Notes under the pieces: model-generated
What the model was told of the DNA's origin: nothing
Seen by the model: the letters and a program-made list of their open reading frames with translations, nothing else
Databases searched by the model: none
Made by a program: the position numbers and the translations under genes
Assembly: GCA_029573725.1 (NCBI GenBank)
Contig: JAKQDQ010000042.1
Span: 64,777 to 128,776 of the forward strand
Length of the DNA stretch: 64,000 nt
Source of the DNA: Verrucomicrobiota bacterium
Lineage (GTDB): Bacteria; Verrucomicrobiota; Verrucomicrobiia; Limisphaerales; JADLHS01
Direction: 5' to 3'
Shown here: piece by piece, positions 45,485 through 61,644 of the stretch
How positions within the stretch are numbered: position 1 is the stretch's first letter
Layout: each line of letters opens with the position of its first letter

Positions 45485-45955
45485 ATGCCGGATAAAGCCG
45501 CCAATGCCGATGTGATTTTCAATTCCGAGTTTCGTCACGGCTGTGACGAGAAGCGGCGTATTCAAATCCCGTCGGCCTGGCGCGCGGGAGTGGGGGCGAC
45601 GCAGTTCACGTTGATTTTATGGCCGCAAGGAAAAGAGGGAGCGTGTTTGCGTGGGTTGCCGCCAAAGAAAATGTGGCAATTGATAGCTGAATTGGATGCC
45701 ATTCCGAGCAGCGATCCGAGCAAGCAGGTCTTGAAACGCTTCATTGGCTCCCAGTCGGTCCAGGTGCATTTGGACAAGGCGGGGCGGATTTGCGTGCCGG
45801 AGAACCTGGCAACGGCCGCAAACATCCGGGTGGGGGAGGAAGTGGTGCTGGTGGGTTTGTTGGATCGTTTTGAAATTTGGGCAGCGGATCGGTATGCGCT
45901 GGTCAGAACGGCCGACGCCTTCCATGCGGACGCGGCGATGAAACGAATGGGTTGA
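45485..45955 (+). CDS. mraZ: transcriptional regulator MraZ
   Basis: A 156-aa protein with the two MraZ repeats: CDEKRRIQIPSAWR near residue 20 and VHLDKAGRICVPENL near 95. Each is a half of the AbrB-like DNA-binding fold. First gene of the dcw cluster, which it probably represses through the upstream array. Its stop is 2 bases before the next gene. Confidence 0.95.
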   Translation: MPDKAANADVIFNSEFRHGCDEKRRIQIPSAWRAGVGATQFTLILWPQGKEGACLRGLPPKKMWQLIAELDAIPSSDPSKQVLKRFIGSQSVQVHLDKAGRICVPENLATAANIRVGEEVVLVGLLDRFEIWAADRYALVRTADAFHADAAMKRMG

Positions 45956-45957
45956 AA

Positions 45958-46461
45958 ATGAAGTTTGGAAAATTATTGGCGGTCGGCAGGAGTTGGGTGG
46001 GAGAGCCCGGCAACGGACGCTATCAGATGCGGGAGGGATTCAGTCTGCCCAAGTTTATTTCGCCGAAGAACCCGTTCAAGCGGGAAGGGGAGACCGGGGT
46101 TGTTTCTGCCCGCGAGACCAGTACTGCCACAGCAACTTCCATCGCCGGTGCATCGGATGCGCCCGATGCTGCGGCGGTGTCCGGGCGTCTGGCGGCTCCA
46201 AAAGGCAGGTCCGGGGCGGGACAGAGGTGGCGCCAGCTGGCGAAGAAGGCGGGGGCGGTCGTGGGGCGGACGGTATTGTTTTGTGTGGATCACAATCCGT
46301 TTTCAGCCATCGGGAAGCCCCGGCTTGCTGGAATTCCGCGGCTGGGGAAGCCCGCAGTGCAGGGTGAACTGTCGTTGGACCGGGTCAAGGTGGTGCGGAA
46401 CGATCTGACGCATGCGGATTTGGAAGTGGTCCCGCTGAGGAGCGGGCCCAAACAAGGGTGA
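45958..46461 (+). CDS. unrecognised protein between mraZ and rsmH
   Basis: A 167-aa protein starting at ATG 45958, two bases after mraZ (MKFGKLLAVGRSWVGEPGNG). The first 45 residues are ordered-looking (GRYQMREGFSLPKFISPKNP). A Ser/Thr/Ala-rich linker follows, then a basic Arg/Lys region, then a hydrophobic-polar end (LAGIPRLGKPAVQGELSLDR). No signal peptide, no clear membrane helix and no catalytic motif. It has probably been in the cluster for some time given the tight spacing. A scaffold or regulator for the divisome operon is possible but unsupported. Confidence 0.75.
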   Translation: MKFGKLLAVGRSWVGEPGNGRYQMREGFSLPKFISPKNPFKREGETGVVSARETSTATATSIAGASDAPDAAAVSGRLAAPKGRSGAGQRWRQLAKKAGAVVGRTVLFCVDHNPFSAIGKPRLAGIPRLGKPAVQGELSLDRVKVVRNDLTHADLEVVPLRSGPKQG

Positions 46462-46481
46462 CGCGTTAACCTGCATGAGCA

Positions 46482-47408
46482 GTGACCGGGTTCAGGCACC
46501 AGCCGGTAATGTTGACCGAAGTGTTGCAGGTTTTGCGACCGCAACCGAACGAAGATTATGCGGATGGAACGCTGGGCGGTGGCGGGCATGCGGCGGCAAT
46601 TTTGGCGGCGAATGCCCCGCATGGGCGCCTGTGGGCGTGTGACCGCGACCCGGCGGCGTTGGCGGCCGCGGCACAACGGCTGGCGGGGTTTGCCGGGCGG
46701 TGTGAATTGCGCCGGGGGAATTTTGCAGAGTTGCAGGAATGGGTGGCTCCGGACAGTTGCGCGGGGGTGTTGTTGGATTTGGGGGTGAGCAGCCCGCAAC
46801 TGGACACGGCCGAGCGCGGGTTCAGTTTTCAAAAAGACGGGCCGCTCGACATGCGCATGGATCAGAGTCAGCCCACGACGGCGGCGACCTTGGTGAATGG
46901 ATGGCCCGTCGAGGAGTTGGCGAAGATTTTTTGGGAATACGGGGATGAGGTCCGGGCGCGGACATTTGCGCGCGCCGTGGTGCGGCAGCGGGAGGCGCGC
47001 CCGTTCGCGACTACGCGGGAGCTCGCGGAACTGATTGAGCGGCTGGCGCCGCGCGGCGGACGAAAGGCGCATCCCGCCACGCGTGTGTTTCAGGCGTTGC
47101 GAATTGCGGTGAATGACGAAATCGGAGCATTGGAACGGGGGCTGGACGGGGCGTTGACGATTCTAAAACCCGGCGGGCGGGTGGCCGTGATTACGTTTCA
47201 CAGTTTGGAAGACCGGGTCGTAAAACAGTGGGCGCGCCGGCTGGCCCGCGATTACACGTTTGCCGAGGTGGACGTGCCGGCGTTGCGTCAACCGCAAGTG
47301 CCGGTGGTGAAGTTGATTACCCGCAGAGCCATCCGGCCGGGTCCGGCGGAACAGCGCGCAAATCCGCGGTGCCGGAGCGCGCAGTTGCGGGTGGTGGAGA
47401 AAATTTAG
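46482..47408 (+). CDS. rsmH: 16S rRNA (cytosine1402-N4)-methyltransferase
   Basis: A 308-aa protein. The GTG at 46482 gives VTGFRHQPVMLTEVLQVL, which matches the family start; no in-frame ATG competes. YADGTLGGGGHAAAIL (SAM motif I), VLLDLGVSSPQLD (motif IV), FQALRIAVNDEIGALE and ITFHSLEDRVVKQW are present. Methylates 16S rRNA C1402. Its stop abuts the ftsL start. Confidence 0.96.
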   Translation: MTGFRHQPVMLTEVLQVLRPQPNEDYADGTLGGGGHAAAILAANAPHGRLWACDRDPAALAAAAQRLAGFAGRCELRRGNFAELQEWVAPDSCAGVLLDLGVSSPQLDTAERGFSFQKDGPLDMRMDQSQPTTAATLVNGWPVEELAKIFWEYGDEVRARTFARAVVRQREARPFATTRELAELIERLAPRGGRKAHPATRVFQALRIAVNDEIGALERGLDGALTILKPGGRVAVITFHSLEDRVVKQWARRLARDYTFAEVDVPALRQPQVPVVKLITRRAIRPGPAEQRANPRCRSAQLRVVEKI

Positions 47409-47777
47409 ATGGCAAGAAATCGCAAAAATCAAGCCGTGGCGCTGCGGTTCGGCGCCGCGCTCAAGGCGGTGGCCTTTTGCGCCTTCGCGGGGGCGGCTGC
47501 AGTGGGTTATGTCTGGCAGAAAAACCAGATTGACGTGCTGGGGCGGCAGATCAAACAGCGCGAAATCCGTCTGGCCGAGTTGCGGGATCAGAACAAAAAA
47601 TTGCGCGATCAGCTGGCCATGCTGCAGTCGCCGGGACAACTGGCGCTGAAGCTCCAGCAGCTGAATTTGGGGCTGATCCAGCCGCATCCCGGCGACGTGT
47701 GGAAAGTGACCGAACCCGTGGAAGTGGCCACCGGAGATTATACCGCTGCCACCGGAGCGCAGGTGGCGCAGCATTGA
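47409..47777 (+). CDS. ftsL: cell division protein FtsL-like
   Basis: A 122-aa bitopic protein: a short basic cytoplasmic N-terminus, one membrane helix (ALKAVAFCAFAGAAAVGYVW near residue 17), then a coiled coil of about 35 residues (QIKQREIRLAELRDQNKKLR). It lies exactly between rsmH and ftsI, the normal ftsL position. The sequence of FtsL is poorly conserved, so position and topology carry the call. Confidence 0.85.
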   Translation: MARNRKNQAVALRFGAALKAVAFCAFAGAAAVGYVWQKNQIDVLGRQIKQREIRLAELRDQNKKLRDQLAMLQSPGQLALKLQQLNLGLIQPHPGDVWKVTEPVEVATGDYTAATGAQVAQH

Positions 47778-47928
47778 AATTTTTGCCGCCGCCCGGGCTG
47801 CGGTCGTGAGGAACCGACTGCCCCGGGTGGCGCGCAAAATTCGCCGGCGCAGGATCGCGGCGGTGTCCGGGGCAGTCGTCCGGCCGATGGGCTGCCGGGC
47901 CGCGGCCGGGGGCGGATGGAGATTCGGG

Positions 47929-49845
47929 ATGGAAAAAAAATTGCAACACTATCGGTTCGTTTTGCTGGGGGGGCTGCTGGTCGGCGCGTTTGCCTTGCTG
48001 GCCTTCCGGCTGGTGGACCTGCAGGTGTGGCGGCACGAGGAGCTGCTCGACCTCGCGCAGCACAACACCGTGCGCCGGGTCCGCAACCCCGCGCGCCGTG
48101 GCGACATCCTGGACATCAATGGCACGCTGCTGGCCTCGAGCATCAAGGTCAAAAACATCTGTGCCGATCCTTCGTTACTCGGAAATTTGCAGGCAGCCGT
48201 GGCCCGGGCCATTGCGCCGGTGCTGGGGGTGGATGAAAACCGGCTTTGCGAGAAGTTACTCGCGACAAACCGGACGACCAGGGACGGGAAAGTGGTTCCG
48301 CGTTTGTACGTGCCGGTGGCGCAACAGGTGCCGGTCGAGAAGTGGGAGCAGGTGAAGGAAATCATGGCGAACTTTCCCGTGCCCGAGCTGGAGCGGAAGC
48401 CGCACCTGACGCGGGCGGAAAAGCTCTTCCTGCAGGGATTGCGGCGACGGGCAATTGCCGTGGACGGTCCGGACGATCAAGTGCGGCAATACCCTCAAGG
48501 CACCCTGGCGGCGCACGTGCTCGGTTTCGTCGGACGTAATCCCGACACCAATTCCATTGATTTTGGTCAGTTGATCGGGGTGGAAGGCATTGAACGGACC
48601 TTCAACAAGAAGCTGGCCGGTGCGTCAGGATGGCGGGTGATCGAACGCGATTGTCGCGGCAACGAAATGGTGGCGTGGCGTGATCAGGATGTGCCGGCGC
48701 GCGACGGTTTCAATGTCGTGCTGACCATTGATGCCGTGGTGCAAACCCTCCTGGAAAACGCGCTGCGGGAGGGGCTGAGCAGCTCGAGCGCCGCCAACAT
48801 CACCGGCATCATTCTGCGGCCGCGCACCGGGGAAATCCTGGCCATGGCCAGTCTGCCCGACTTTGATCCCAACCGGGTGCCCCACAATGCGGAATTGCGC
48901 CGGAATCGGGCGATCAGCGACTTTTACGAGCCGGGCTCGACCTTCAAAATCGTCACGGTGGCCGCGGCGTTGCAGGAGGGCGTGGTGGCCTTGAATGACC
49001 GGGTTGATTGCGAGAACGGCGCGTTCAAGTTTGGCGGACGAACACTGCACGACGCGCATGGCGGACATGGAATTCTGTCGGTCAAAAACATCATCACCAA
49101 ATCCTCGAACATCGGGGCCGCCAAAATCGGACTGAAACTTGGGGAGCGGCGGCTGTTCGATTACTTGGGCGAATTTGGCTTTGGATTGCCGACGGGAATT
49201 GCGCTGCCGGCTGAGGCGCGGGGACTGGTGCATCCCATCAAGGAATGGAGCAAGGTCTCCATTGTTCAGATACCGATGGGACACGGGGTGGCCGTCACGC
49301 GGTTGCAGATGACGATGGCGATGGCGGCCCTGGCCAATGAGGGTTGGTTGATGCGGCCGATGCTCGTGAACCGGTTGCAGGATAACTCCGGCAGGTTGAT
49401 TACCCGGTTTGAACCCCAGCGAGTGCGCCAGGTGGTCAGCGCGGACACCGCGCGTGAGATGGTCGAGGCGCTCAAGACCGTGGTGCTTCCCGGTGGCACC
49501 GCGGTGCAGGCGGCCCTGACCAATTACACCGTCGCCGGAAAAACCGGCACCGCACAAAAACCGGGCCCGGGTGGGTACCAAGCCGGCAAATATATCGCCT
49601 CCTTCATCGGGTTTTTCCCCGCCGACAACCCGGAGGTGTGCATTTCCATTGTGTTGGATGAGCCGAAAAACGGCTATTACGGCGGAGTCGTGGCGGCGCC
49701 GATCTTCAAGCAGGTCGGCAGCGCGGTGGCCGGCTACCTGCACATCCCGCCGGACGTTGGTCCGGTCGCCACCAACACGACGCTTTCACACCTGAATCTG
49801 GGATCGGCCCGCACTCCGGGCCGGCTGACGTTAAATGACAACTAA
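47929..49845 (+). CDS. ftsI: penicillin-binding protein 2 / FtsI transpeptidase
   Basis: A 638-aa class B PBP starting at ATG 47929, with a GGATGGAGA Shine-Dalgarno-like sequence just upstream; an earlier GTG at 47806 is in frame but adds a basic tail with no family support. The membrane helix is near residue 10 (FVLLGGLLVGAFALLAFRLV). PBP dimer domain, then transpeptidase motifs S337-T-F-K, S392-S-N394 and K538-T-G. It crosslinks septal peptidoglycan. The gene that normally follows, murE, is missing. Confidence 0.95.
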   Translation: MEKKLQHYRFVLLGGLLVGAFALLAFRLVDLQVWRHEELLDLAQHNTVRRVRNPARRGDILDINGTLLASSIKVKNICADPSLLGNLQAAVARAIAPVLGVDENRLCEKLLATNRTTRDGKVVPRLYVPVAQQVPVEKWEQVKEIMANFPVPELERKPHLTRAEKLFLQGLRRRAIAVDGPDDQVRQYPQGTLAAHVLGFVGRNPDTNSIDFGQLIGVEGIERTFNKKLAGASGWRVIERDCRGNEMVAWRDQDVPARDGFNVVLTIDAVVQTLLENALREGLSSSSAANITGIILRPRTGEILAMASLPDFDPNRVPHNAELRRNRAISDFYEPGSTFKIVTVAAALQEGVVALNDRVDCENGAFKFGGRTLHDAHGGHGILSVKNIITKSSNIGAAKIGLKLGERRLFDYLGEFGFGLPTGIALPAEARGLVHPIKEWSKVSIVQIPMGHGVAVTRLQMTMAMAALANEGWLMRPMLVNRLQDNSGRLITRFEPQRVRQVVSADTAREMVEALKTVVLPGGTAVQAALTNYTVAGKTGTAQKPGPGGYQAGKYIASFIGFFPADNPEVCISIVLDEPKNGYYGGVVAAPIFKQVGSAVAGYLHIPPDVGPVATNTTLSHLNLGSARTPGRLTLNDN

Positions 49846-50122
49846 AACCTCCTAACAAACCATGAATCCCCACTGCATCTCGCATCGGTTGTTCGCCGCC
49901 GCGTTAAGCCAGCTTCCCCCCGGGTCCGGAGCGCCGGCGTTGCGGGAAACGGAGGCAGACCGCCGCAAAACGCGAACCCGCCGGGATGCGCCCGCAGCGG
50001 AAGTGGTGGAGAAAAAAGGCGCCGGCTGGTCCTGGAGTGGCTGGCAGCACACCACGCTTTAAGCAGGGACGTTGGAGGCGGGCGGCGAGCCGGATAACCA
50101 GGATGCGATGTGAACCGTGACA
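49846..50122 (+). other. ftsI-murF gap where murE is expected
   Basis: 277 bases without MurE sequence. A 66-codon frame at 49862-50062 (MNPHCISHRLFAAALSQLPPG) is rich in Pro/Arg/Ala and shows neither the MurE N-terminus nor its GKGHE-type end. I see no remnant long enough to call a pseudogene. Confidence 0.6.
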
Positions 50123-51514
50123 ATGAAAACGGCGCAATTCGTGGCGGCGGCATGTGGCGGCGAATGGGTGCGCGGCTCCCCGACGGCGGAGGTGCGGCGC
50201 ATCAACACGGACTCCCGCAGGACGCAGCCCGGCGACCTGTTTGTCGCGCTGAAAGGAGAACATTTTGACGGACATCATTTCATTGACGAAGTGGTGCAAA
50301 AAGGTGCGGCGGCGGTGCTCGTCGAAAAAGGGCGTTGCCCAGCCCCGCTGCCGGATTGTGTGGTGATCCAGGTCGCGGACACGCGACGGGCTTATGGACA
50401 AATTGGTATGGCGCATCGAAAAACATTTCCGCTCCCGGTCATCGCCGTTGGCGGTTCCAACGGCAAAACGACGACGAAGGAGTTGATTGCGGCCGTTTTG
50501 CGGCAGCGGTTCAACACGCTGTGGAGCGAGGCCAGTTTCAACAATGACATCGGCGTGCCGGCCACATTGCTGCGGCTCGAGGCGGCCCATGAGGTGGCCG
50601 TGGTCGAAGTCGGCACCAATCATCCGGGCGAACTGGCCGGACTGCTGGAACTGGTCCGGCCGCGCTTCGGCGTCATCACCAACATCGGTCGGGAACATTT
50701 GGAGTTTTTTGGCGATGTTGCGGGCGTCGCGCGCGAGGAGGGGGCTCTGGCCGAAGTGTTGCCGCCTGACGGCCGGTTGTTTTTGAACGGGGATGACGAG
50801 TGGAGCGATGCGCTGGCGCGCCGTACGACCGCGGCGGTCACGCGGGTGGGCAGCCGCCGCTCGTGCGATTGGTCCGTCAGCCGGGTGAAATTCGAGGAGG
50901 AGGGAACGAGCTTTACGGTGGTCGCGCCCAATCCGGAGTTGAGCGGCTCGTATCGCATCGGTCTGCTCGGGCGTCATCAGGTGGGCAACGCCCTATTCGC
51001 CATTGCGATCGGCGCCGAATTCGGTTTGCGCCGTGACGAAATTGCCCGGGGGCTGGCGCGTTGTGCGCCGGCCCAAATGCGTCTGCAGCGCTACGTGGCG
51101 GGCGGGGTGCAGGTGCTGGATGATGCCTACAACGCGAATGCCGATTCGATGATTGCCGCCTTGCACGTCCTGCAGGAACTGCCGTGCGCCGGACGCCGGG
51201 TGGCGGTCCTGGGCGACATGGCGGAGTTGGGAGCGCAGCGGGAGAGCGCCCACGCGGAGGTGGGGCGGCGCGCCGCCGAACTCGGTGTGGAGCAGTTGAT
51301 CGCCGTGGGGGAGATGGCCGGGGTGATGGGGCAGGCGGCGCGACACGCCGGGCTTGGCCGCGTGATTGAACTGGCCAGCGTGGAAGCCGCCGCCACCGCC
51401 ATCAAATCCTTTTTGAAGCCGGGCGACACGGTGTTGTTGAAAGCCTCGCGCAGCACACGGCTGGAGCGCATTGCGCAGGCGTTGAAAGCGAGCGACAGCG
51501 CGAAGCAAAACTAG
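50123..51514 (+). CDS. murF: UDP-MurNAc-tripeptide:D-Ala-D-Ala ligase MurF
   Basis: A 463-aa protein starting at ATG 50123 (a GTG two codons earlier is possible). It has DSRRTQPGDLFVALKGEHFDGH, the ATP loop GGSNGKTTTKE near residue 110, VEVGTNHPGELAGL and the central LDDAYNANADSM, typical of MurF. It adds D-Ala-D-Ala to the UDP-MurNAc-tripeptide. It is the only Mur ligase in the cluster. Confidence 0.96.
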   Translation: MKTAQFVAAACGGEWVRGSPTAEVRRINTDSRRTQPGDLFVALKGEHFDGHHFIDEVVQKGAAAVLVEKGRCPAPLPDCVVIQVADTRRAYGQIGMAHRKTFPLPVIAVGGSNGKTTTKELIAAVLRQRFNTLWSEASFNNDIGVPATLLRLEAAHEVAVVEVGTNHPGELAGLLELVRPRFGVITNIGREHLEFFGDVAGVAREEGALAEVLPPDGRLFLNGDDEWSDALARRTTAAVTRVGSRRSCDWSVSRVKFEEEGTSFTVVAPNPELSGSYRIGLLGRHQVGNALFAIAIGAEFGLRRDEIARGLARCAPAQMRLQRYVAGGVQVLDDAYNANADSMIAALHVLQELPCAGRRVAVLGDMAELGAQRESAHAEVGRRAAELGVEQLIAVGEMAGVMGQAARHAGLGRVIELASVEAAATAIKSFLKPGDTVLLKASRSTRLERIAQALKASDSAKQN

Positions 51515-51590
51515 CGGGCCGGTCACGCAATGCGCGTGGACCGGTCAACACCCTGGCCGGAGGGCCACGGAAAACTGGAAACGAATCTGA

Positions 51591-52775
51591 ATGTTGTTTT
51601 ATCTCAGTCAAGCCATCATGACCTGGGCTGAAGGATCGGACCATGCCGCAAGCGTGTCGTTTTTGCGCCTGTTCCGCTACATTACGTTTCGCAGCGCCGG
51701 GGCGGCCGTCACCGCGCTGCTTCTCAGCTGGTGGCTGGGGCCCAAAGTGATCGCCCGACTGAAGCAGCTGAAATTCGGTCAGGAATACAAGGACCTGGCC
51801 GACCAGTCGGGGGCCTTTGAGACGCGGGTGTTGAGCAAAAAGGGAACGCCGACGATGGGGGGCATCCTGATCGTGCTGGTGTTGAACCTGACCGCAATCT
51901 TGTGGGCGCAAATGAATCCGCTGCTGGAATTGACCCTGCTGACCGTGCTGGTGCTGGCGGGACTGGGATTTTATGACGACTACGCAAAAATCCTGAAACA
52001 GCAGGGCGGCGGCGCGCCCCCGCGGGTGAAGTTATGGGTGCAATTTGCCGTGGCGGCTTTCGTGGCGGTGTATTTATGGCAACTGCCGCAGGACAGCTGG
52101 CTGCGTTTTACCGAAACCCAGGCGCCCGAACGTCACAATCTGGTCAGCACCCTGATGCTTCCGTTTTACAAATTTCCCATTCCTTGCGGCGCGGCGGTGG
52201 GGCTGTTGATTGTGACATTGACGATCGTGGGCAGTTCCAATGCGGTTAACTTGACGGACGGACTGGACGGCCTGGCGGTGGGATGCACGATCATTACCGC
52301 GACGGTGTTTCTGGTGCTGACCTATTTGGCGAGCAACTTCAAATATGCGACGTATCTCCAGATCCCCTACGTGGAAGGGGCCGGGGAATTGACGATTTTT
52401 TGCGCGGCACTCATCGGGGCGGGCATGGGGTTTTTATGGTTCAATTGCCATCCTGCCCAGATCTTCATGGGGGACACCGGCTCCCTGGCGCTCGGAGGGG
52501 CGTTGGGCCTGGTGGCGGTTTTGATCCACCAGCCGGTGTTGCTGGTCATCGCGGGTGGCGTGTTTGTCATGGAGGCGGGATCCGTCATTGTGCAAAAAGG
52601 CTGGTTCAAGTTTACCCGGAAATGCCACGGAGTCGGCCAACGGGTGTTTCTCATGGCTCCGATCCACCACCACTTCGAGAAGAAGGGCTGGTATGAGTCG
52701 CAGGTGGTCACGCGGTTTTACATCTTGTGTGTGTTGTTTGCCGTGGTCGCTTTGAGCACCTTGAAAATCCGATGA
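51591..52775 (+). CDS. mraY: phospho-N-acetylmuramoyl-pentapeptide transferase MraY
   Basis: A 394-aa polytopic enzyme with about ten membrane helices. FYDDYAKILKQ (catalytic Asp pair), NLTDGLDGLAVG and the C-terminal PIHHHFEKKGWYESQVV are the MraY motifs. It makes lipid I at the inner membrane. The ATGA at its stop leads into a 63-codon frame of unknown status. Confidence 0.96.
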   Translation: MLFYLSQAIMTWAEGSDHAASVSFLRLFRYITFRSAGAAVTALLLSWWLGPKVIARLKQLKFGQEYKDLADQSGAFETRVLSKKGTPTMGGILIVLVLNLTAILWAQMNPLLELTLLTVLVLAGLGFYDDYAKILKQQGGGAPPRVKLWVQFAVAAFVAVYLWQLPQDSWLRFTETQAPERHNLVSTLMLPFYKFPIPCGAAVGLLIVTLTIVGSSNAVNLTDGLDGLAVGCTIITATVFLVLTYLASNFKYATYLQIPYVEGAGELTIFCAALIGAGMGFLWFNCHPAQIFMGDTGSLALGGALGLVAVLIHQPVLLVIAGGVFVMEAGSVIVQKGWFKFTRKCHGVGQRVFLMAPIHHHFEKKGWYESQVVTRFYILCVLFAVVALSTLKIR

Positions 52776-53185
52776 AACAGACAGCAAATCCGTGGACGCC
52801 GCTGGGCGGGAGGAGAGTTTTTGAATCTGCGCTTTCCTGCTTGCAGAGGCAGACTCGCATTGTTAAAAAACTCGTCGAAACGACGTCGGTTTCCGGGCGC
52901 AGGTGGAAGGAGAGGGTGTGGCGTTCATGGTTTTCCTGCTTCAAGAGTTTTTCGCGATGTTAATTTATTGCGGAAGACCGTGCGAAGCGGGATAAATCAA
53001 TTAGTGGTGGTGCGCCGGAAGCGCTACACAACATGCACGGTAAAATCGGGGGCTGGTCGGAGGGGCCGATCGGCCGGACGGAAACGGCGGAGACGAATTT
53101 GTTGTCGCTCTTGTGAGGCAGGGACGGACAACGGAAAATTAACCAAATCAAACCTCAATGAAAGGACGCGAAACGCGCCAAGCAA
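52776..53185 (+). other. mraY-lysM gap where murD is expected
   Basis: 410 bases without MurD sequence. A 63-codon frame begins at the mraY stop (52772-52963, MKQTANPWTPLGGRRVF). It is basic and Cys-containing, and carries none of the MurD motifs, so I leave it open whether it is translated. Two similar short stretches (TTTCCTGCTT-type at about 52830 and 52933) may be a degenerate repeat. No terminator is obvious. Confidence 0.55.
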
Positions 53186-53914
53186 ATGAATAGTGTCAGC
53201 CCATTGATCCCTCAAGGCTCCCAGCAGGAGCAACAATACAAGGCCCGAGCCAGTCTCAAAACCAAGATTTTCTGCGCTCTGGGCGTGAATGTCGCCGTGC
53301 TGCTCGGGTTGTTGTTGATGCCCGGATGCAAACGTGAAACGCCACCACCGGTGGAGAATCTGGACGATTACTCCACCAGCGGGATTTACCACGAAAGCAA
53401 TCCTCCCATGTCGGAAATGGAAACGAACTGGCAGCCGGAGCTGTTGGGGACCAATAGCCTGGAATCCGTGGGCACACCGGTGCCGGCCACGCCGGTCCCC
53501 GCGCCGGAAACCGCTCCCACCCTTCCGACACCTCTGGTGTCGTCCCCGGCGGCCGGTGTCTCCGAATATGTCGTGCAAAAGGGAGACACCTTTTCCGCCA
53601 TTGCACCGAAATTTCACGTGACGATCAAAGCGTTGCAGGAAGCGAATCCAAACGTGGAACCCACGAAACTGCAGATCAATCAGAAGCTCGTCATCCCGGC
53701 GCCGTCCGCAGTCCCGCCGTCCGCACCCTCCGTCAGCCCAGCCGCATCGGCCGACGGAATGACGATTCACGAAGTTAAATCAGGGGATAATCTGACCACC
53801 CTGGCGAAAAAGTATCATACGACCATCAAAGCCATCCAGGCGGCGAACGGCTTGACCCATTCGAATATCAAAGTGGGGCAGAAATTGAAAATTCCCGCCG
53901 GGAGCTCCCAGTAA
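53186..53914 (+). CDS. LysM-repeat envelope protein in the dcw cluster
   Basis: A 242-aa protein. The N-terminal membrane or lipobox-like segment (LGVNVAVLLGLLLMPGCKRE) is followed by a Pro/Thr-rich linker. LysM 1 (EYVVQKGDTFSAIAPKFHV, near 128) and LysM 2 (IHEVKSGDNLTTLAKKYHT, near 192) follow; each binds peptidoglycan. Cys in LMPGC could be lipidated. It lies where murD normally stands, before ftsW, so a role in septal wall binding is plausible. Confidence 0.92.
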   Translation: MNSVSPLIPQGSQQEQQYKARASLKTKIFCALGVNVAVLLGLLLMPGCKRETPPPVENLDDYSTSGIYHESNPPMSEMETNWQPELLGTNSLESVGTPVPATPVPAPETAPTLPTPLVSSPAAGVSEYVVQKGDTFSAIAPKFHVTIKALQEANPNVEPTKLQINQKLVIPAPSAVPPSAPSVSPAASADGMTIHEVKSGDNLTTLAKKYHTTIKAIQAANGLTHSNIKVGQKLKIPAGSSQ

Positions 53915-53958
53915 GCGCCGATTTTCGGCAGGGACGCTTGCGCCGCCGCCGGCCCGGG

Positions 53959-55119
53959 ATGAAGACCGCTGTCACCACGCTGATGTTTTGCGTTGCCGCC
54001 CTGCTCGTGCTGGGGCTGGTGATGTTGTACAGCTCAACGATGAACGACCCGACCCGCACCACCGGACAGTTCGTTGGCATGCAGCTTCTCATCTCCCAGT
54101 TGATCTGGTGCAGCCTGGGTTTGGGTGCGTGCGTAGTGGCGGCATGGATGGATTATCGGTGGTTGCACAAATACGCCTGGGGCCTGTTTGCAATTGCCGT
54201 GGTCTTGCTGGTGGCGGTCCTGGTGCTGCCGGAACCGTGGGGAAAACCCATCAAAGGCGCGCGGCGGTGGATCAACCTCCCGTTGGGCAATGTCCAGCCC
54301 TCGGAATTCGCCAAGCTGGTGTTGATCATTGTCATGGCCTGGTATTGCGAGCGTTACCAGCGGCGGATGCGTAATTGGACCCGGGGCGTCCTGGTTCCGG
54401 GCGGGATCATGGCCGTAATCCTGGGGCTGATCTTTATCGAGCCGGACCGGGGGACCACCATCTTGTTGGCGGCTGTGGGCGGCATTTTGCTGTTGCTGGC
54501 CGGGGTGCAATGGCGGTTCTTCATTCCGCCTGCCCTGTTGGCACTGGCCGGACTGATTTTTTCCATCTGGCAGGACCCCATGCGCATGAAACGGATTTTC
54601 AGCTGGCTCTATCTGGAGGAAAACCGTGATGGCGTGGGCTATCAAGCCTATCAAGCGATGATTGCCCTGGGGGCGGGGGGGTGGTCAGGTCTGGGACTGG
54701 GCAATGGCCGGCAAAAACGGGGGTTCGTGCCCGAGCATCATACCGATTTCATTTTTTCGATCATCGGCGAGGAACTGGGTTTGATGGCCACCTTGGCGGT
54801 GGTGCTGGCCTTTGTGCTGATTTTTATTTGCGGTCTTTATATTGCATCCCGCGCTCGCGATCCGTTCGGAAAGATGCTCGCGGCGGGGCTCAGTTTTTTG
54901 ATCGGTCTGCAAGCCTTCATCAACATCGGAGTCGTCACCAGCACGCTGCCCAACAAGGGACTGGCGCTGCCGTTCATCAGCTACGGAGGTTCCAGTATGC
55001 TGACGATGTTGACGGGCGTTGGCTTGCTGCTAAGCGTGGCGCGGCAGGCGCGGGCCCCCGAGATCCGGCCGACCAACCCCTTCGCCGCCGCCGAATTTCC
55101 CGAGGCGCAAACCCTATGA
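53959..55119 (+). CDS. ftsW: peptidoglycan polymerase FtsW
   Basis: A 386-aa polytopic SEDS protein, about ten helices. NLPLGNVQPSEFAKL, GVGYQAYQAMIALG, VPEHHTDFIFSIIGEELG and LPFISYGGSSML match FtsW/RodA. I use ATG 53959; a TTG at 53938 is in frame. Septal glycan strand polymerase working with FtsI. The stop overlaps the murG start (ATGA). Confidence 0.95.
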   Translation: MKTAVTTLMFCVAALLVLGLVMLYSSTMNDPTRTTGQFVGMQLLISQLIWCSLGLGACVVAAWMDYRWLHKYAWGLFAIAVVLLVAVLVLPEPWGKPIKGARRWINLPLGNVQPSEFAKLVLIIVMAWYCERYQRRMRNWTRGVLVPGGIMAVILGLIFIEPDRGTTILLAAVGGILLLLAGVQWRFFIPPALLALAGLIFSIWQDPMRMKRIFSWLYLEENRDGVGYQAYQAMIALGAGGWSGLGLGNGRQKRGFVPEHHTDFIFSIIGEELGLMATLAVVLAFVLIFICGLYIASRARDPFGKMLAAGLSFLIGLQAFINIGVVTSTLPNKGLALPFISYGGSSMLTMLTGVGLLLSVARQARAPEIRPTNPFAAAEFPEAQTL

Positions 55120-56312
55120 CGCCGTCCGTGCCCGCTTGCCTGCATGTCGCCATCGCCTGCGGCGGTACGGGCGGACATCTCTTCCCGGGCCTGGCCGTTG
55201 CCGAGCAACTCCGCCGCCACGGAGTCGCGGTCAGCGTCATGATTTCACCGAAGGAAGTGGATCAGCAGGCGGTGCGTTCGGTGACCGGGATGGAGGTGGT
55301 GACCCTGCCGGCCGTTGCCTGGCAACGCGGCAGCCGGCTCGCGTGTCTCCGTGGTTTTTTGCAATCATGGCGATCGGCACGGCGCTGGTGCAGCCACCGA
55401 CGTCCCGCCGCAGTCCTGGCCATGGGCGGGTTTACCGCCGTGGCGCCAGTGCTGGCCGGGCGCGGCCGGGGTGGCAAGACTTTCTTGCACGAATCCAACA
55501 CAGTCCCCGGCAAGGCGAATCGCTGGCTGGCTTCCCGCGCGGACGAGACATTTGTCGGATTCCCGGAGGCTGCGCGACGGCTGAACGCCCGGAGGGTCGC
55601 GGTCACCGGGACGCCCGTGCGTGCGGAACTTCGCTCCGGTGACATGATCACCAGCCGCATGGAGTTGGGGCTTCAGCCGGATCGTCCGGTGGTGTTGGTG
55701 ATGGGCGGAAGCCAGGGAGCGAGCCGCATCAATCATCTGGTGATGGCTGCGTTGCCGCACCTGACCGGGGCGCATCGCGACTGGCAGTGGTTGCATCTGG
55801 CGGGGGCGCGGGATGTTGATATGGTGCGTGCCGCTTACGCGGCGGCGGGGGTGACGGCCGTGGTGCATCCGTTCCTGCACCGCATGAATCTGGCTTTGCA
55901 CGCCGCCACGGTTTGTGTCAGTCGTGCTGGCGCCGCTTCCCTGGCCGAACTGGCCGCGGTGCGCCTGCCGGCAATTTTGATTCCGCTGCCCGAGGCGGCC
56001 GACAACCACCAGTGGCACAATGCCCGCGCGTATGCCGAAAGCGGGGCCGCTCTCCTGCTGGAGCAGCACCTGGCCACGGCTGGAAACCTTCTGCGATTGT
56101 TGCAAGATCTGACCGGCACCGCGGCAACTGTCGGGACCATGCGGGCCGCGCTGGCCAAATGGGATCATCCCGGCGCGGCAGAAAATATTGCAGGGCGGAT
56201 TCTGCGCGCGCTCGGCCAACCGGTCGCCGCCGGCAACCCGCCCGCTGCGGAGCCGGCCACCACGGCGGAGGAATCCGGATGGAGACAAATGGAAGGGCTG
56301 GTTGCGGTATGA
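55116..56312 (+). CDS. murG: UDP-GlcNAc transferase MurG
   Basis: A 398-aa protein. CGGTGGHLFPGLAVAE (donor-binding glycine motif) near residue 15, LHESNTVPGKANRWL, VMGGSQGASRINHL and VSRAGAASLAELAAV are the family's motifs. A C-terminal Ala/Pro-rich tail extends it beyond the usual ~360 aa. It makes lipid II from lipid I. ATGA overlap with both ftsW and murB; murC, normally between, is absent. Confidence 0.96.
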   Translation: MTPSVPACLHVAIACGGTGGHLFPGLAVAEQLRRHGVAVSVMISPKEVDQQAVRSVTGMEVVTLPAVAWQRGSRLACLRGFLQSWRSARRWCSHRRPAAVLAMGGFTAVAPVLAGRGRGGKTFLHESNTVPGKANRWLASRADETFVGFPEAARRLNARRVAVTGTPVRAELRSGDMITSRMELGLQPDRPVVLVMGGSQGASRINHLVMAALPHLTGAHRDWQWLHLAGARDVDMVRAAYAAAGVTAVVHPFLHRMNLALHAATVCVSRAGAASLAELAAVRLPAILIPLPEAADNHQWHNARAYAESGAALLLEQHLATAGNLLRLLQDLTGTAATVGTMRAALAKWDHPGAAENIAGRILRALGQPVAAGNPPAAEPATTAEESGWRQMEGLVAV

Positions 56313-57259
56313 GTGGGTTGCCCGTGAAGCCAGTTGCTGCGGCACAGCCCGGGGATGTCCGGTTGGCCGCATTAAATGCCGCAGTTTCAGCCGCCACACT
56401 GGTGCGGCGGAATGAACCGCTGGCCAAACGCACCACCTTCCGCGTGGGCGGACCGGCGGACTTTTATGTCGAACCGGCCTCCGAAGCGGATCTGGCGGCG
56501 GTGCTGCACTGGAGCGCGGAATTTGCGGTGCCATTTTTTGTCCTGGGGCGCGGCTCGAATTTGCTGGTGCGCGATGGCGGGGTTCGAGGCGTGGTCATCA
56601 GACTGTCCCAGCCCGGTTTTGGCGGCGTGGTGGTGGAGGGCGAACGATTGCGGTGCGGGGCCGGAGCGCGATTGAAGGACGTGGCGGTGACCGCGAAGCG
56701 GTCGGGCCTGGCTGGAGTGGAATTTTTTGAGGGGATTCCGGGCAGCGTGGGCGGCGCCCTGCGGATGAACGCCGGGGCGATGGGTTCTGAGACCTTTGAG
56801 CGGGTGGAATCGGTGCGCCTGATGGATGCCTCCGGGACGGTGCGGAATCTGCCGGTCCGGGAGATGGACTTTGCTTACCGCAGTTGTGCGGTGTTGAAAT
56901 CGCATCTGGCGCTGGGCGCAGTTTTCAAATGCGACGCTTCGTCGCCGGAGGAAGTCGCCCAACGGATGGCCGGGTTCAGCCGGAAACGCTGGCACTCACA
57001 ACCCGCGGCGGCAAGCGCGGGCTGCTGCTTCCAGAATCCGCCGGGGATTGCCGCCGGCAAACTGGTGGAGGAACTGGGTTTAAAGGGCACGCAGGTCGGC
57101 GGGGCAATGGTTTCATGGGAACACGGCAATTTTATCGTCAATGTCAACGCGGCGACGGCGCAGGACATTCTGAATTTGCTGACGTTGATCCAGACCCGGG
57201 CGAGGGCGGTGCGCGGCATTGAGCTGCAGCCGGAGATCCAGATTATCGGCGAAAATTGA
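56309..57259 (+). CDS. murB: UDP-N-acetylenolpyruvoylglucosamine reductase MurB
   Basis: A 316-aa flavoenzyme with FRVGGPADFYVEP, FVLGRGSNLLVRDGG, GIPGSVGGALRMNAG and AYRSC. The catalytic motif is SAGCCFQNPPG: the usual Ser after SAG is Cys. It reduces the enolpyruvyl group to UDP-MurNAc. ATGA start overlap with murG. Whether Cys serves as acid in this variant is inferred. Confidence 0.95.
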   Translation: MSGLPVKPVAAAQPGDVRLAALNAAVSAATLVRRNEPLAKRTTFRVGGPADFYVEPASEADLAAVLHWSAEFAVPFFVLGRGSNLLVRDGGVRGVVIRLSQPGFGGVVVEGERLRCGAGARLKDVAVTAKRSGLAGVEFFEGIPGSVGGALRMNAGAMGSETFERVESVRLMDASGTVRNLPVREMDFAYRSCAVLKSHLALGAVFKCDASSPEEVAQRMAGFSRKRWHSQPAAASAGCCFQNPPGIAAGKLVEELGLKGTQVGGAMVSWEHGNFIVNVNAATAQDILNLLTLIQTRARAVRGIELQPEIQIIGEN

Positions 57260-57270
57260 GGTCAGGGCGG

Positions 57271-58173
57271 ATGGTTGAACCATTGCACATTACGGTGATG
57301 CTCGGCGGGCCCGGCGCGGAACGCGAAGTATCGCTGCGGTCGGGCGCGGCGGTCGCCGCGGCGCTGCGGTCGCTGGGACATTATGTCACCGCGCTTGATC
57401 CGCAACGGCCGGGCTGGCAGCTGCCGCAGGAGACGGAGGTGGTGTTTCTGGCATTGCACGGCACTTACGGAGAAGACGGCACCGTGCAAGCCGAACTGGA
57501 GCAGTTGGGCGTGCCGTACACCGGTTGTGATGCCGCGGCGAGCCGCACCGGGTTTGACAAGGCGTTGACGAAGGAAAAACTGGTGGCCGCCGGAGTGCCG
57601 ACCGCGCGCTTTCTGGTGGTGGATGCGCCGGAAGCTCCCTGGCCGGCGGGCTGGGACGCGCCACTGATCATCAAACCGGTGCGCCAGGGTTCCAGTGTCG
57701 GGCTTCATTTTGTCGATCGGCCGGAAGCCTGGCGGGATGCCCTGACGGAGGCGCTGGACCATGATGCGCGGGTGTTGGTGGAGGAGAAAATTATCGGCCG
57801 GGAGACGACCGTGGGCGTCTTGGATCGGCAACCGCTGCCGGTGGTGGAGGTGCGCCCGAAGTCCGGGGTTTATGACTATGGCAACAAGTATGGGGCTGGG
57901 AGGACTGATTATTTTTGTCCGGCGGACTTTGACGCGGCGACCACGAACCGGGTGCAGGCGGCGGGACTCGCGGCGTTCCACGCCATCGGCGCTCGCGATT
58001 ATGCCCGCGTGGATGTGATGGTGCGCGCCAACGGTGACCCGGTGGTGTTGGAGGTCAATACGCTTCCGGGGATGACCGAAACCAGTCTCTTCCCCAAAGC
58101 GGCCGCGGCGGCGGGAATCAGTTATCCGGAATTATGCCAGCGCATGGTCCAGCTGGCACTGAGGCGCCAATGA
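57271..58173 (+). CDS. ddl: D-alanine--D-alanine ligase
   Basis: A 300-aa ATP-grasp enzyme. VMLGGPGAEREVSLRSG (N-terminal), VFLALHGTYGEDGTVQ, IKPVRQGSSVGLH, YDYGNKYGAGRTDYFCPA and VLEVNTLPGMTETSLFPK are all present. I choose ATG 57271, preceded by GGTCAGGG; a TTG at 57256 overlaps murB. Makes the D-Ala-D-Ala used by MurF. Stop overlaps ftsQ (ATGA). Confidence 0.96.
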   Translation: MVEPLHITVMLGGPGAEREVSLRSGAAVAAALRSLGHYVTALDPQRPGWQLPQETEVVFLALHGTYGEDGTVQAELEQLGVPYTGCDAAASRTGFDKALTKEKLVAAGVPTARFLVVDAPEAPWPAGWDAPLIIKPVRQGSSVGLHFVDRPEAWRDALTEALDHDARVLVEEKIIGRETTVGVLDRQPLPVVEVRPKSGVYDYGNKYGAGRTDYFCPADFDAATTNRVQAAGLAAFHAIGARDYARVDVMVRANGDPVVLEVNTLPGMTETSLFPKAAAAAGISYPELCQRMVQLALRRQ

Positions 58174-59129
58174 GTCTGTTCAAACGCAAACCAAGGAATC
58201 GGCGCACCGGGCGCATTCATGTCCTGGACGTGAAGTTGCGCTCGGACCAACTCCGGCGATCGCGGCTGCGCAAGGCGGGGATGGCGTTGGCCGCCCTGCT
58301 TGGCACACTGGTGGGCGTGTTTGCCTTCTGGCATGTCGGACAGTGGGCGGCGGGCCAGTTGCTCTACCAAAATTCGGCTTTTGCAATCCGCACCATTGAA
58401 GTGCATACCGACGGCACGATTGCGACGGACCAATTGCGCCGGTGGGCGAACGTGCGTCCGGGACAGAATCTGCTGGCGTTGGATCTGGCGCGGGTCCAAC
58501 GCGACTTGCAGTTGTCGCCGGCGCTGGAAACGGTCATGGTGGAGCGGATTCTTCCCCACACTTTGCGGATTCGTGTAGCTGAACGCGAACCCGTGCTGCA
58601 AGTGGGGGTGCCGCTGATGCGGCCGGGGACCGGCTGGGAAACTGCCGTTTTTTTGATTGGAACGGATGGCGTGGTCATGGCGCCGCTAAGTCCCCGGCAA
58701 CGCGTCCGTCCGCAACCGGAAGTCGAGGAGGGCCTGCCACAGTTGACGGGTTTGAATCTCAGCGAAGTGCGCCCCGGCCAGCGGCTGGCGGCCCCGGCTG
58801 TGCAGTCCGCATTGCGCCTGGTCAATGAATTTGCCTATTCCCCGCTGGCGGGATTGGTGGATTTGCGGCGGGTTGACGTCAGCGCCACCGACGTGATTGT
58901 GGTCACCACCGTCCAGGGAAGTGAAGTGACTCTCGGTTTGGAGAACTTGGAACAGCAACTGCGTCGCTGGCGGGAGATCCACGATCTTGGCATCCGGACG
59001 CATCGCCGCATCGCCAGCCTGGATTTATCGGTATCCAATAATGTGCCGGTGCGCTGGTTGGCGCCGGACAGCCCGCCGCCGCCGGCCCGGCAGCCGAAAC
59101 CCATGCGAAGCAGAAAGCGCCATGTTTGA
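58170..59129 (+). CDS. ftsQ: cell division protein FtsQ/DivIB-like
   Basis: A 319-aa bitopic protein: a basic cytoplasmic N-terminus (FKRKPRNRRTGRIH), one membrane helix (AGMALAALLGTLVGVFAFWH near 37), then a POTRA-type domain (FAIRTIEVHTDGTIATDQL, VRPGQNLLALDLARVQRDL) and a beta region. Order ddl-ftsQ-ftsA supports it. The C-terminus is Pro/Arg-rich. It overlaps ftsA by 8 bases. Confidence 0.9.
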   Translation: MSLFKRKPRNRRTGRIHVLDVKLRSDQLRRSRLRKAGMALAALLGTLVGVFAFWHVGQWAAGQLLYQNSAFAIRTIEVHTDGTIATDQLRRWANVRPGQNLLALDLARVQRDLQLSPALETVMVERILPHTLRIRVAEREPVLQVGVPLMRPGTGWETAVFLIGTDGVVMAPLSPRQRVRPQPEVEEGLPQLTGLNLSEVRPGQRLAAPAVQSALRLVNEFAYSPLAGLVDLRRVDVSATDVIVVTTVQGSEVTLGLENLEQQLRRWREIHDLGIRTHRRIASLDLSVSNNVPVRWLAPDSPPPPARQPKPMRSRKRHV

Positions 59130-60342
59130 TTCTTCATCCATCATTGTTGGTCTGGAAATCGGAACGTCCAAGGTTTGCGCCGTGGTGGGCGAGCTCAATG
59201 AAGGGGCCGCGCCCAATATCATAGGCGTGGGACAGGCCGGTTCGCGCGGAGTGCGCAAGGGCGAGATCATTGATCCACGCGTGGTCGAGGAGGATGTCCG
59301 GCATGCGATCGTGGAGGCTGAACAGATGGCAGACGTCGAAATCCGCAGCGTTTATCTGGGAGTCTCGGGCGGGCACATCCGCGGTTTCAATAACCGGGGC
59401 ATGCACCCGGTGGTGTCTGCGGACCGGGAAATCACCCAGGAGGACGTGGCGGATGTGGTCAAGAATGCCAAGGCCATCAATCTGCCCCAGGAACACACCG
59501 TCCTGCACGCCATTCGACAGGACTTTTTTGTCGATGGTCACAAAGGGGTCAAAAGCCCCGTCGGCATGCTGGGAGCGCGGCTGGAGGTGGACGTTCATGT
59601 GGTGCATGGCCATTTGAACCGGCTGCAGAATGCCATTCGCGTGGTGCGCGGCATCCAACTGGAGGTTGAAGAAGTGGTGTTCAATGGCCTGGCGACATCG
59701 CTGGCCGTGTTGACGCCCACACAGAAAACCCTCGGCGCGTTGGTCATTGATCTCGGGGCCGGCACGACGAACTATGCCGTGTATTACCAGGGGGTGATCC
59801 GGCACACCGGCGTCCTGGCCGTCGGCGGCGATCACGTGACGAATGATCTCGCTTATGGTTTGAAAGTGCCGCAGGGACGTGCCGAACAACTCAAGATTGA
59901 CCATGGACACGCCGTAATGACCGCTGCCGACGAGGATCAGAAAATCGAGCTCAAGAGCGGTCATGGGCTTCCGGCCAGCCACGTCAATTTGAGCCATCTG
60001 CGCAGGATCATGTCATTGCGGCTGGAGGAGATTTTTGAATTGATTGCGCAGGACCTCATGCAGCTGGATTTGTTCGAGTGTCTGCGCGCCGGCGTGGTGT
60101 TGACCGGTGGCGGCGCCCGCATTCGGGGCATCACCCAGCTGGCGGAACAGGTTTTGGGACTGCCGGTGGTGGTGGGCAATATTACCGGCGCCAGCAGTCT
60201 GAAATCTTCGATCGACCAGCCTGAATTTGCGACCGGGATCGGCCTGGCCTACTTCGGCTCACTAAAGAGCCGGCGGGAGGCGCCGCGCTTTTCGCTGTTG
60301 GGCGGCATCAAACAGGTCTGGGGGAAATTGCTGCCGCGCTAG
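59122..60342 (+). CDS. ftsA: cell division protein FtsA
   Basis: A 406-aa actin-like ATPase starting at ATG 59122. VGLEIGTSKVCAVVGEL (phosphate 1), VIDLGAGTTNYAVYYQGV (phosphate 2), VLTGGGARIRGI (adenosine) and the membrane-targeting amphipathic C-terminus LLGGIKQVWGKLLPR are intact. It tethers FtsZ to the membrane. 12 bases before the ftsZ-like gene. Confidence 0.96.
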   Translation: MFDSSSIIVGLEIGTSKVCAVVGELNEGAAPNIIGVGQAGSRGVRKGEIIDPRVVEEDVRHAIVEAEQMADVEIRSVYLGVSGGHIRGFNNRGMHPVVSADREITQEDVADVVKNAKAINLPQEHTVLHAIRQDFFVDGHKGVKSPVGMLGARLEVDVHVVHGHLNRLQNAIRVVRGIQLEVEEVVFNGLATSLAVLTPTQKTLGALVIDLGAGTTNYAVYYQGVIRHTGVLAVGGDHVTNDLAYGLKVPQGRAEQLKIDHGHAVMTAADEDQKIELKSGHGLPASHVNLSHLRRIMSLRLEEIFELIAQDLMQLDLFECLRAGVVLTGGGARIRGITQLAEQVLGLPVVVGNITGASSLKSSIDQPEFATGIGLAYFGSLKSRREAPRFSLLGGIKQVWGKLLPR

Positions 60343-60354
60343 GATTGCCACCTT

Positions 60355-61644
60355 ATGGATGCTCAAACTGAAAGGGACGCCGGACAGGTCCGGGTAACCA
60401 TCATCGGTGTCGGCACCGCCGGGGCCACGCTGGCTAAAGCGCTGCCACAGCCGGAGTTCGCCCCGGCCCGCCTGGCCCTGGTGAATACGGATGCCTCGGT
60501 GCCCGGCGGGCCCCAGCCGCAGTTGCTGCTGCAAACACCACCACCGCACGGCTTGGGCACCGGTGGTGATCCCGAGCTCGGCAACCAGCTGGCAGAGGAG
60601 CGTTATGACGATCTGAAAGCCATCTGTGCCAATGCCGAGGTTGTCTTTTTGCTGGCTGGTCTGGGCGGCGGCGCCGGGTCCGGGATCACGCCGGTACTGG
60701 CACGCGCCGCCAAGGCCAGCGGGGCGCTGGTGCTGGCTTTCGTGACGTTGCCGTTTGTCTGCGAAGGGAACCGCCGCCAGGTGCAGGCGCAACAGGCACT
60801 GGCTGACCTCAACCGCGAGTGTGACGCCGTCGTCTGCCTGGCCAATCAAAGGGTGCTGCCATTGCTGGATGAGCGCGCCACGGTGCTGGAAATTTTTCAA
60901 ACGGGGGGGCGGCTCTTGATCGAAGCAGTGCAGGGTGCATGGCGGCTGTTGCAGCGGCCCGGCCTGGTCCGGCTGCACTTCCGGGATCTGCGCGCCGTAT
61001 TGCGCGAAAGCCATGGAGAAAGCTGTTTCGCCACGGTTGAAGCGTCTGGGCCTGAACGCGCTCAGCAAATTATCGCGAAGATCTTGACGCATCCCCTGCT
61101 CGCCGAAGGACAGGTTTTTGCGGAGGCCGGCAGCGTCCTGGTCAGCATGTTGGGCGGACCGGATCTTACGATGCGGGAAGTGGATGAGCTGATGCGGCAA
61201 CTTTCCGAGCGCTGCGTGGGCGTGCGCCTGCTGATGGGGGCGGCGATCGACGCGGCGTGGCAGGACCGGCTGAGCGTCACCGTGTTCGTCGCCCGGACGG
61301 CAAAAACCGATCGTCAGCCGGCGGGGACGCCGGGGAAGGTGTTGGACGCGCCCACCCAGTTGACCGCGGAGCTGTTGCAGGACACGACGAACAGCCGGCC
61401 CGAGTCCCGGTTGGTGCCCCCGCCACCCGTCCTGACTCCGGAGCAACGCTCGGCCATCATCACGCGGCACGTGGGGAAATCGGCCCGCGTACGCCGCCGC
61501 GCGGACGGCCCGCGTATGCGCCAAACGACGCTGCCTTTGGATATTGTGAACAAGGGACGTTTTGATAAAAGCGAACCGACAATCCACAAGGGCGAGGATC
61601 TGGATCTGCCAACCTACGTGCGCCGCGGGATTGCGTTGAACTGA
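60355..61644 (+). CDS. ftsZ: highly divergent FtsZ-like GTPase
   Basis: A 429-aa protein in the ftsZ position. Recognisable FtsZ landmarks: VTIIGVGTAGATLA (N-terminal G1), LALVNTDASV, HGLGTGGDPELGNQLAEE, GLGGGAGSGITPVLARA (residues 102-118) and FVCEGNRR. The GTP signature GGGTGTG reads GGGAGSG. The catalytic T7 loop, usually N-L-D-F-A-D, reads R206-L-H-F-R-D211, so the Asn and first Asp are lost and only the second Asp remains. A variable linker follows, then the C-terminal peptide EDLDLPTYVRRG, well matched to the FtsA-binding tail. FtsA precedes it. Fold clear; strong GTPase activity is doubtful. Confidence 0.87.
   Translation: MDAQTERDAGQVRVTIIGVGTAGATLAKALPQPEFAPARLALVNTDASVPGGPQPQLLLQTPPPHGLGTGGDPELGNQLAEERYDDLKAICANAEVVFLLAGLGGGAGSGITPVLARAAKASGALVLAFVTLPFVCEGNRRQVQAQQALADLNRECDAVVCLANQRVLPLLDERATVLEIFQTGGRLLIEAVQGAWRLLQRPGLVRLHFRDLRAVLRESHGESCFATVEASGPERAQQIIAKILTHPLLAEGQVFAEAGSVLVSMLGGPDLTMREVDELMRQLSERCVGVRLLMGAAIDAAWQDRLSVTVFVARTAKTDRQPAGTPGKVLDAPTQLTAELLQDTTNSRPESRLVPPPPVLTPEQRSAIITRHVGKSARVRRRADGPRMRQTTLPLDIVNKGRFDKSEPTIHKGEDLDLPTYVRRGIALN

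Follow-up and report, generated by a model that had tools for sequence, protein, structure and literature searches.

Can a bacterium divide with an FtsZ that has lost two of the three conserved residues of its T7 loop, and has no other FtsZ to rely on? The question is raised by a 64,000-nucleotide stretch (the window) of contig JAKQDQ010000042.1, positions 64,777 to 128,776, from a bacterium of the order Limisphaerales, phylum Verrucomicrobiota. An ftsZ gene occupies positions 60355–61644 of the window, on the forward strand like all window features given here; it begins with ATG and encodes 429 residues, and no other gene of the tubulin superfamily was found in the genome. The best reading is that its product serves division as the genuine and sole FtsZ of this organism, and is not a decayed or accessory copy.

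Filament structures of Staphylococcus aureus FtsZ indicate how the active site is assembled between neighbouring subunits (residues are numbered here as in the B. subtilis and S. aureus proteins). A swing of D210 places the catalytic water; a potassium ion is coordinated by N208 and locked by Q48 of the next subunit; and D213 contacts R143, an arginine-finger-like residue, through a water molecule (PMC8936486). N208 and D210 have been described as conserved throughout the bacteria that have FtsZ (PMC8456036). In the window protein the T7 loop is GLVRLHFRDLR (aa 203–213, positions 60961–60993), which aligns without gaps to GLINLDFADVK in the solved FtsZs of B. subtilis and S. mutans; E. coli FtsZ has GLMNVDFADVR at the same place. 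Its own residues R206, H208 and D211 correspond to N208, D210 and D213 respectively, leaving D213 as the sole survivor of the canonical triad and confirming the degenerate loop R206-L-H-F-R-D211 noted in a preliminary description of this DNA.

The other side of the site is altered as well. In the T1 loop (60415–60429) the guanine contact N25 is replaced by threonine, as is G21; Q48 is also replaced, and further downstream, at aa 185, D187 has become glycine. The T4 phosphate loop, GLGGGAGSG (aa 102–110, 60658–60684), keeps every glycine, with T109 changed to alanine, and misses the strict tubulin signature [SAG]GGTG[SAT]G by that one residue; the earlier view that the GTP-binding signature GGGAGSG is weakened holds for T109 and otherwise mildly overstates the case. 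Also retained are D46, G72, and E139 and R143 (E137 and R141 in the protein's own numbering, 60763–60777), both invariant in the clade described below. The window protein thus preserves the half-site in which the arginine-finger-like R143 pairs with an acid at position 213.

In other respects the protein has the attributes by which an FtsZ orthologue is recognised. It matches the Tubulin domain (PF00091, E-value 3.3e-25, 89.9 bits against a cut-off of 33) and FtsZ_C (PF12327, 1.4e-11, 45 bits against 27), lies in the dcw cluster directly after ftsA, and ends in an FtsA-binding peptide, EDLDLPTYVRRG, which matches the consensus D/N-L-D-x-P-T/A-[FY]. Its predicted fold is that of a plain, intact FtsZ: the AlphaFold2 model, built from 91 sequences, has a predicted local distance difference test score (pLDDT) of 86 and superimposes on solved FtsZs with a Z-score of 40 over 306 residues and a root mean square deviation of 2.0 Å. 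The TIGR00065 score, 205.9 bits, lies under the cut-off of 295.2, which is passed by only 11 of 115 genomes of the phylum compared with 13 of 14 control genomes. The neighbouring ftsA (59122–60342; TIGR01174, 5e-110) is intact, encodes a C-terminal amphipathic stretch, GGIKQVWGKLLPR, and ends 12 bases before ftsZ begins, so that the conserved tail with ftsA just upstream, as previously described, is indeed present. Relative to its nearest relatives the window gene differs at 0.52–0.65 of third codon positions compared with 0.30–0.33 of second positions, and is under purifying selection. Because of this difference, and because intact orthologues with the same type of T7 loop occur in dozens of independently assembled genomes, a pseudogene or sequencing error is excluded.

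No second FtsZ was found in the genome. The genome search for another ftsZ that had been proposed was run with PF00091 and with Tubulin_2 (PF13809, the FtsZl families); the first profile matches one gene in the genome, and the second matches neither the window protein nor anything else there. No BtubA/BtubB-type pair was found, the single PF00091 gene carrying FtsZ_C. Each of 12 genomes of the family, this one and 11 more, has one PF00091 gene, and within the order a match is found in 163 of 167 near-complete genomes, as a single copy in 162 of those 163. Extra tubulin-type PF00091 copies are seen only in other genomes (for example G257, G261 and G273). As a rarity in the phylum, one genome (G266) has two divergent FtsZs, one beside ftsA and one elsewhere (L210, L211), and three genomes outside the class (G365, G373, G392) have, besides the main FtsZ, a second weak FtsZ-like match covering TIGR00065 positions ∼21–121. 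Four genomes of 90–99% completeness (G067, G159, G239, G278) yield no FtsZ by PF00091 or by profile A1.

The remodelling of the active site is a lineage trait and not a lone oddity, as judged from FtsZ and ftsA sequences collected from loci across the phylum and aligned, with the ftsA tree taken in place of a species tree; ftsA adjoins ftsZ in 258 of the 263 loci sampled. On this tree the window sequence belongs to a Limisphaerales clade of 48 species, represented by 48 sequences (support 90). N208 and D210 are absent from all of them. An acid is present at 213 in every one (39 Asp, 9 Glu), and R143, E139 and P135 are each found in 48/48, whereas Q48 is kept in only three and N25 in six. When the clade is thinned to below 70% identity, E139 and R143 remain invariant, whereas Q48 and N25 are among the most variable columns (ranks 301 and 296 of 303). 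Histidine occupies position 210 in 39 of the 48 sequences and in 18 of the 26 of the thinned set, in which Arg, Gln, Tyr, Pro, Gly and Thr also occur and the column comes no higher than 177th of 303 in conservation; histidine is therefore typical at this position but not strictly held.

Across 256 distinct Verrucomicrobiota FtsZs the whole triad is present in 51, and N208 and D210 are both lost in 122. Only five have an acid at neither 210 nor 213, and of the 148 without the acid at 210, 143 keep that at 213. The ftsA tree requires a minimum of 14–22 state changes at position 210, whereas shuffled labels give a mean of 83. Of 15 losses of the 210 acid inferred there, 14 map to branches on which the 213 acid persists (p ∼0.006, uncorrected, from parsimony and branch lengths on a single FastTree ftsA tree). 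This pattern is suggestive of the retention of at least one acid at the two positions. If N208 is asked to disappear together with Q48 or D46, and D210 together with N25 or D187, the directions are partly those expected and the independent pairs are not significant. FtsZ-core identity falls below FtsA identity by 0.184 where both genomes compared have lost the 210 acid and by 0.071 where both keep it, from which we conclude that the FtsZ core evolves faster where T7 has changed.

Canonical loops occur in Limisphaerales too, as in L061 (GLINLDFADL). Other branches have altered the loop differently. The family f51 (L093–L113) shows the opposite loss, keeping N208 and D210 and replacing D213 by threonine (NLDFATL). 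The family f48 (L218–L222), with closed or near-closed genomes of 2.3–2.5 Mb, has TGLAGATG as its T4 loop and no recognisable T7, its alignment in that region being unreliable. A public metagenome-assembled genome labelled Akkermansia muciniphila (L017) contains a Limisphaerales-type FtsZ, and its contig is identical with that of G007, so it is probably mislabelled.

The C-terminus of the protein is better preserved than its GTPase domain. The extended tail, residues 390–429 (61522–61641; QTTLPLDIVNKGRFDKSEPTIHKGEDLDLPTYVRRGIALN), has a conservation of 0.74 compared with 0.59 in the GTPase core. In the window protein and its relatives, the conserved stretch starts ∼25 residues before the usual peptide does (GRFxKSEPTIHKGEDLDxPT), and the extended tail recurs throughout the phylum, even where the GTPase domain is barely recognisable (L215).

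An extreme case is found in a single Limisphaerales genus, g7, from which two genomes (G014 and G015) give no PF00091 match. Each has an open reading frame beside an intact ftsA with a full FtsZ tail (G015, L322:1501–2769, reverse strand; G014, L323:571–1866, forward strand). Pfam finds no tubulin domain in these products; profile comparison matches them to FtsZ over their whole length with a probability of 98.3 and an E-value of 2e-14, a result driven in part by the tail. The T4 loop is replaced (SLDQVHDEDQG, ALEDPGDGK), and E139, R143 and T7 are unrecognisable in the alignment; the sister genus keeps T4 (row L146). The AlphaFold2 model is of moderate quality (pLDDT 69) and resembles FtsZ with a Z-score of 18, although an input alignment made of FtsZ rows biases it towards that fold. 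The g7 protein is apparently an FtsZ without a nucleotide site.

How, then, might the window protein work? We lean, by a modest margin, towards a sole working FtsZ whose half-dismantled site turns GTP over slowly and without potassium, and which serves as an FtsA-tethered scaffold. This reading builds on the observed single copy, synteny, clade-wide residue losses and retentions and purifying selection, and on the predicted fold. The T7 side has lost N208, the potassium ligand, and D210, which positions the water; the facing side has lost Q48, which locks the potassium, and N25 and D187, which contact the guanine. These losses would reduce the active site to D/E213 and R143, with the T4 loop, D46 and E139 also kept. 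Nucleotide would be bound through T4 and E139, filament formation would be retained, and the D/E213–water–R143 half-site would hydrolyse GTP slowly with no potassium ion. Slow hydrolysis would in turn mean slow turnover, leaving the protein chiefly a scaffold that FtsA anchors to the membrane by way of the unusually conserved 40-residue tail. The slow or non-hydrolysing filament of the preliminary description thus gains weight as the best reading, since both the water-placing and the potassium-binding residue are lost. The same residues in many active FtsZs of the phylum had been named as a point against it, and such losses, counted as residues only, do prove to be widespread there.

Known systems suggest that rings can form even when GTPase activity is strongly reduced. 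In E. coli, GTP hydrolysis by FtsZ(D212A) is much slower, yet this protein still builds rings, and with extra FtsA its extra septa complete division alongside the wild-type protein; a D212G form reportedly functions in division (PMC4383033). Treadmilling in B. subtilis is slowed by D213A, and the rings are partly condensed yet constrict (PMC8079713). The E. coli D212A and D212G changes, and D210N, N208L and D213N in S. aureus, fall at the same T7 positions as those considered here (PMC4383033, PMC8936486), but they are single laboratory changes in a canonical background, whereas the window protein has naturally lost both N208 and D210 and keeps D213. The FtsZ of Candidatus Thiosymbion oneisti is a natural protein with low GTPase activity, but its T7 and catalytic residues are reported to be conserved (PMC8953583). 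With the canonical FtsZs of E. coli, B. subtilis and S. aureus the window protein shares its predicted fold, domains, T4 glycines, E139, R143, D213, FtsA-binding tail and dcw position after ftsA; it differs in the replacement of N208, D210, Q48, N25 and D187, in a tail conserved over ∼40 residues, and in a TIGR00065 score below the cut-off.

A close parallel comes from Verrucomicrobium spinosum, to which we assign the FtsZ of G293 by its length of 673 residues and its GGGTGSG motif, both matching PMC1845146, where this FtsZ is called canonical. Its T7 loop, GIVRMGIADLL, lacks N208 and D210, and D213 and R143 are present. The species divides by binary fission and its ftsZ is essential by transposon sequencing (PMC12283558); an FtsZ lacking both residues can therefore be essential. 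Like the window protein it is the single copy in a member of the same phylum; it differs in having glycine rather than histidine at 210, in keeping N25 and D187, and in its much longer linker.

Several observations weigh against a slow, half-site filament. Single changes in S. aureus FtsZ, D46A, N208L, D210N or D213N, each abolish assembly (PMC8936486), and the loss of two of the three T7 residues might therefore prevent filaments from forming unless it is compensated. The FtsZ of Nitrosopumilus maritimus, which also lacks T7, does not polymerise; that organism, however, uses Cdv proteins and its FtsZ has an altered GTP-binding motif, whereas T4 and the FtsA tail are both present in the window protein (PMC3684127). 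Mutual exclusion of acid loss at 210 and 213 is not significant by independent pairs (median p 0.125–0.25), with no same-direction pairs in most draws. Finally, genus g7 has lost even R143 and T4, so the retained half-site is not required in every relative.

The g7 proteins, which have kept the tail beside an intact ftsA, also lend themselves to the strongest competing explanation, that GTP hydrolysis has been wholly lost in the clade and that the filament is stabilised by nucleotide or indifferent to it. FtsA (an actin-like ATPase), septal wall synthesis or other factors would then drive ring turnover, and g7 would be the end point of the trend. The disappearance of D210 and the potassium site, the higher rate of FtsZ-core evolution, measured against FtsA, in genomes without the 210 acid, and a tail conserved more than the core are all consistent with this idea. 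The universal retention in the clade of R143, E139, P135 and an acid at 213 would nevertheless be odd if hydrolysis were wholly dispensable, and the T4 glycines are conserved too; we regard complete loss as rather unlikely, though a serious contender. Near-normal hydrolysis with a replaced T7 chemistry, for example with H208 (position 210) acting as the base or placing the water in lieu of D210, seems distinctly less probable. The prevalence of histidine in the clade invites such a proposal, but its middling conservation in the thinned set disfavours a strict substitute catalyst, which should be better kept, and other clades carry Gly, Ser or Thr at 210.

It is very improbable that the window protein is a decaying, marginal FtsZ in cells that divide mainly by other means, as do FtsZ-less relatives in the Planctomycetes–Verrucomicrobia–Chlamydiae superphylum. 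The low TIGR00065 score, the failure to find MinC_C or ZapA, and the absence of FtsZ from Planctomycetota and Chlamydiota (PMC5147048) might suggest as much, but an intact reading frame beside an intact ftsA throughout the order, purifying selection, the near-invariant tail, the 163 of 167 order genomes with a match and the essentiality of V. spinosum ftsZ (PMC12283558) all argue otherwise. Least credible is the earlier proposal that the protein partners another, canonical FtsZ encoded elsewhere: the assembly, 96% complete in 187 contigs, has gaps that could hide a gene, but the single-copy counts given above for the genome, its family and the order, several near-complete relatives among them, contradict it.

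Taken at the level of the group, the sequences make it seem that these bacteria as a whole divide with a slowed or GTP-independent ring. A more specific proposal, which we offer tentatively, is that one order, always with a sole FtsZ beside an intact ftsA, spans the path from a canonical GTPase through the half-dismantled site of the window protein to the absence of any recognisable site in g7, and that division here may rest on a scaffold with little or no GTP hydrolysis, FtsA or septal synthesis providing the dynamics. The divergence and fast evolution of FtsZ in Verrucomicrobiota have been described before (PMC2474590, PMC9871819, PMC1845146); we found no account of residue-level T7 losses in the literature searched, although T7 changes may have been noticed in older papers on verrucomicrobial FtsZ. 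About half of the phylum's sampled FtsZs lack N208 and D210, residues described as universal (PMC8456036) and as essential for assembly (PMC8936486), and V. spinosum, a species with working genetics, is among those lacking both (PMC12283558). The phylum thus offers a natural series in which to ask whether GTP hydrolysis and treadmilling by FtsZ are needed in division, and what can substitute for them.

The dcw cluster upstream (45485–59129) comprises mraZ, rsmH, an ftsL-like gene, ftsI, murF, mraY, a LysM protein gene, ftsW, murG, murB, ddl and ftsQ; ftsA and then ftsZ follow, with ftsZ last. MurF, MraY, MurG, MurB, Ddl, FtsW and FtsI are present in the genome, whereas MurC, MurD and MurE were not found there; the only three Mur_ligase_M proteins found are MurF (window 50117–51514), Mpl (L318:898–2556) and FolC (L319:666–2123). 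Loss of Mur ligases shows no association with loss of T7. The number of Mur_ligase_M proteins is bimodal across the order, with three in 78 genomes and six in 31, and from its gene content a peptidoglycan precursor route through Mpl and MurF is conceivable in this bacterium.
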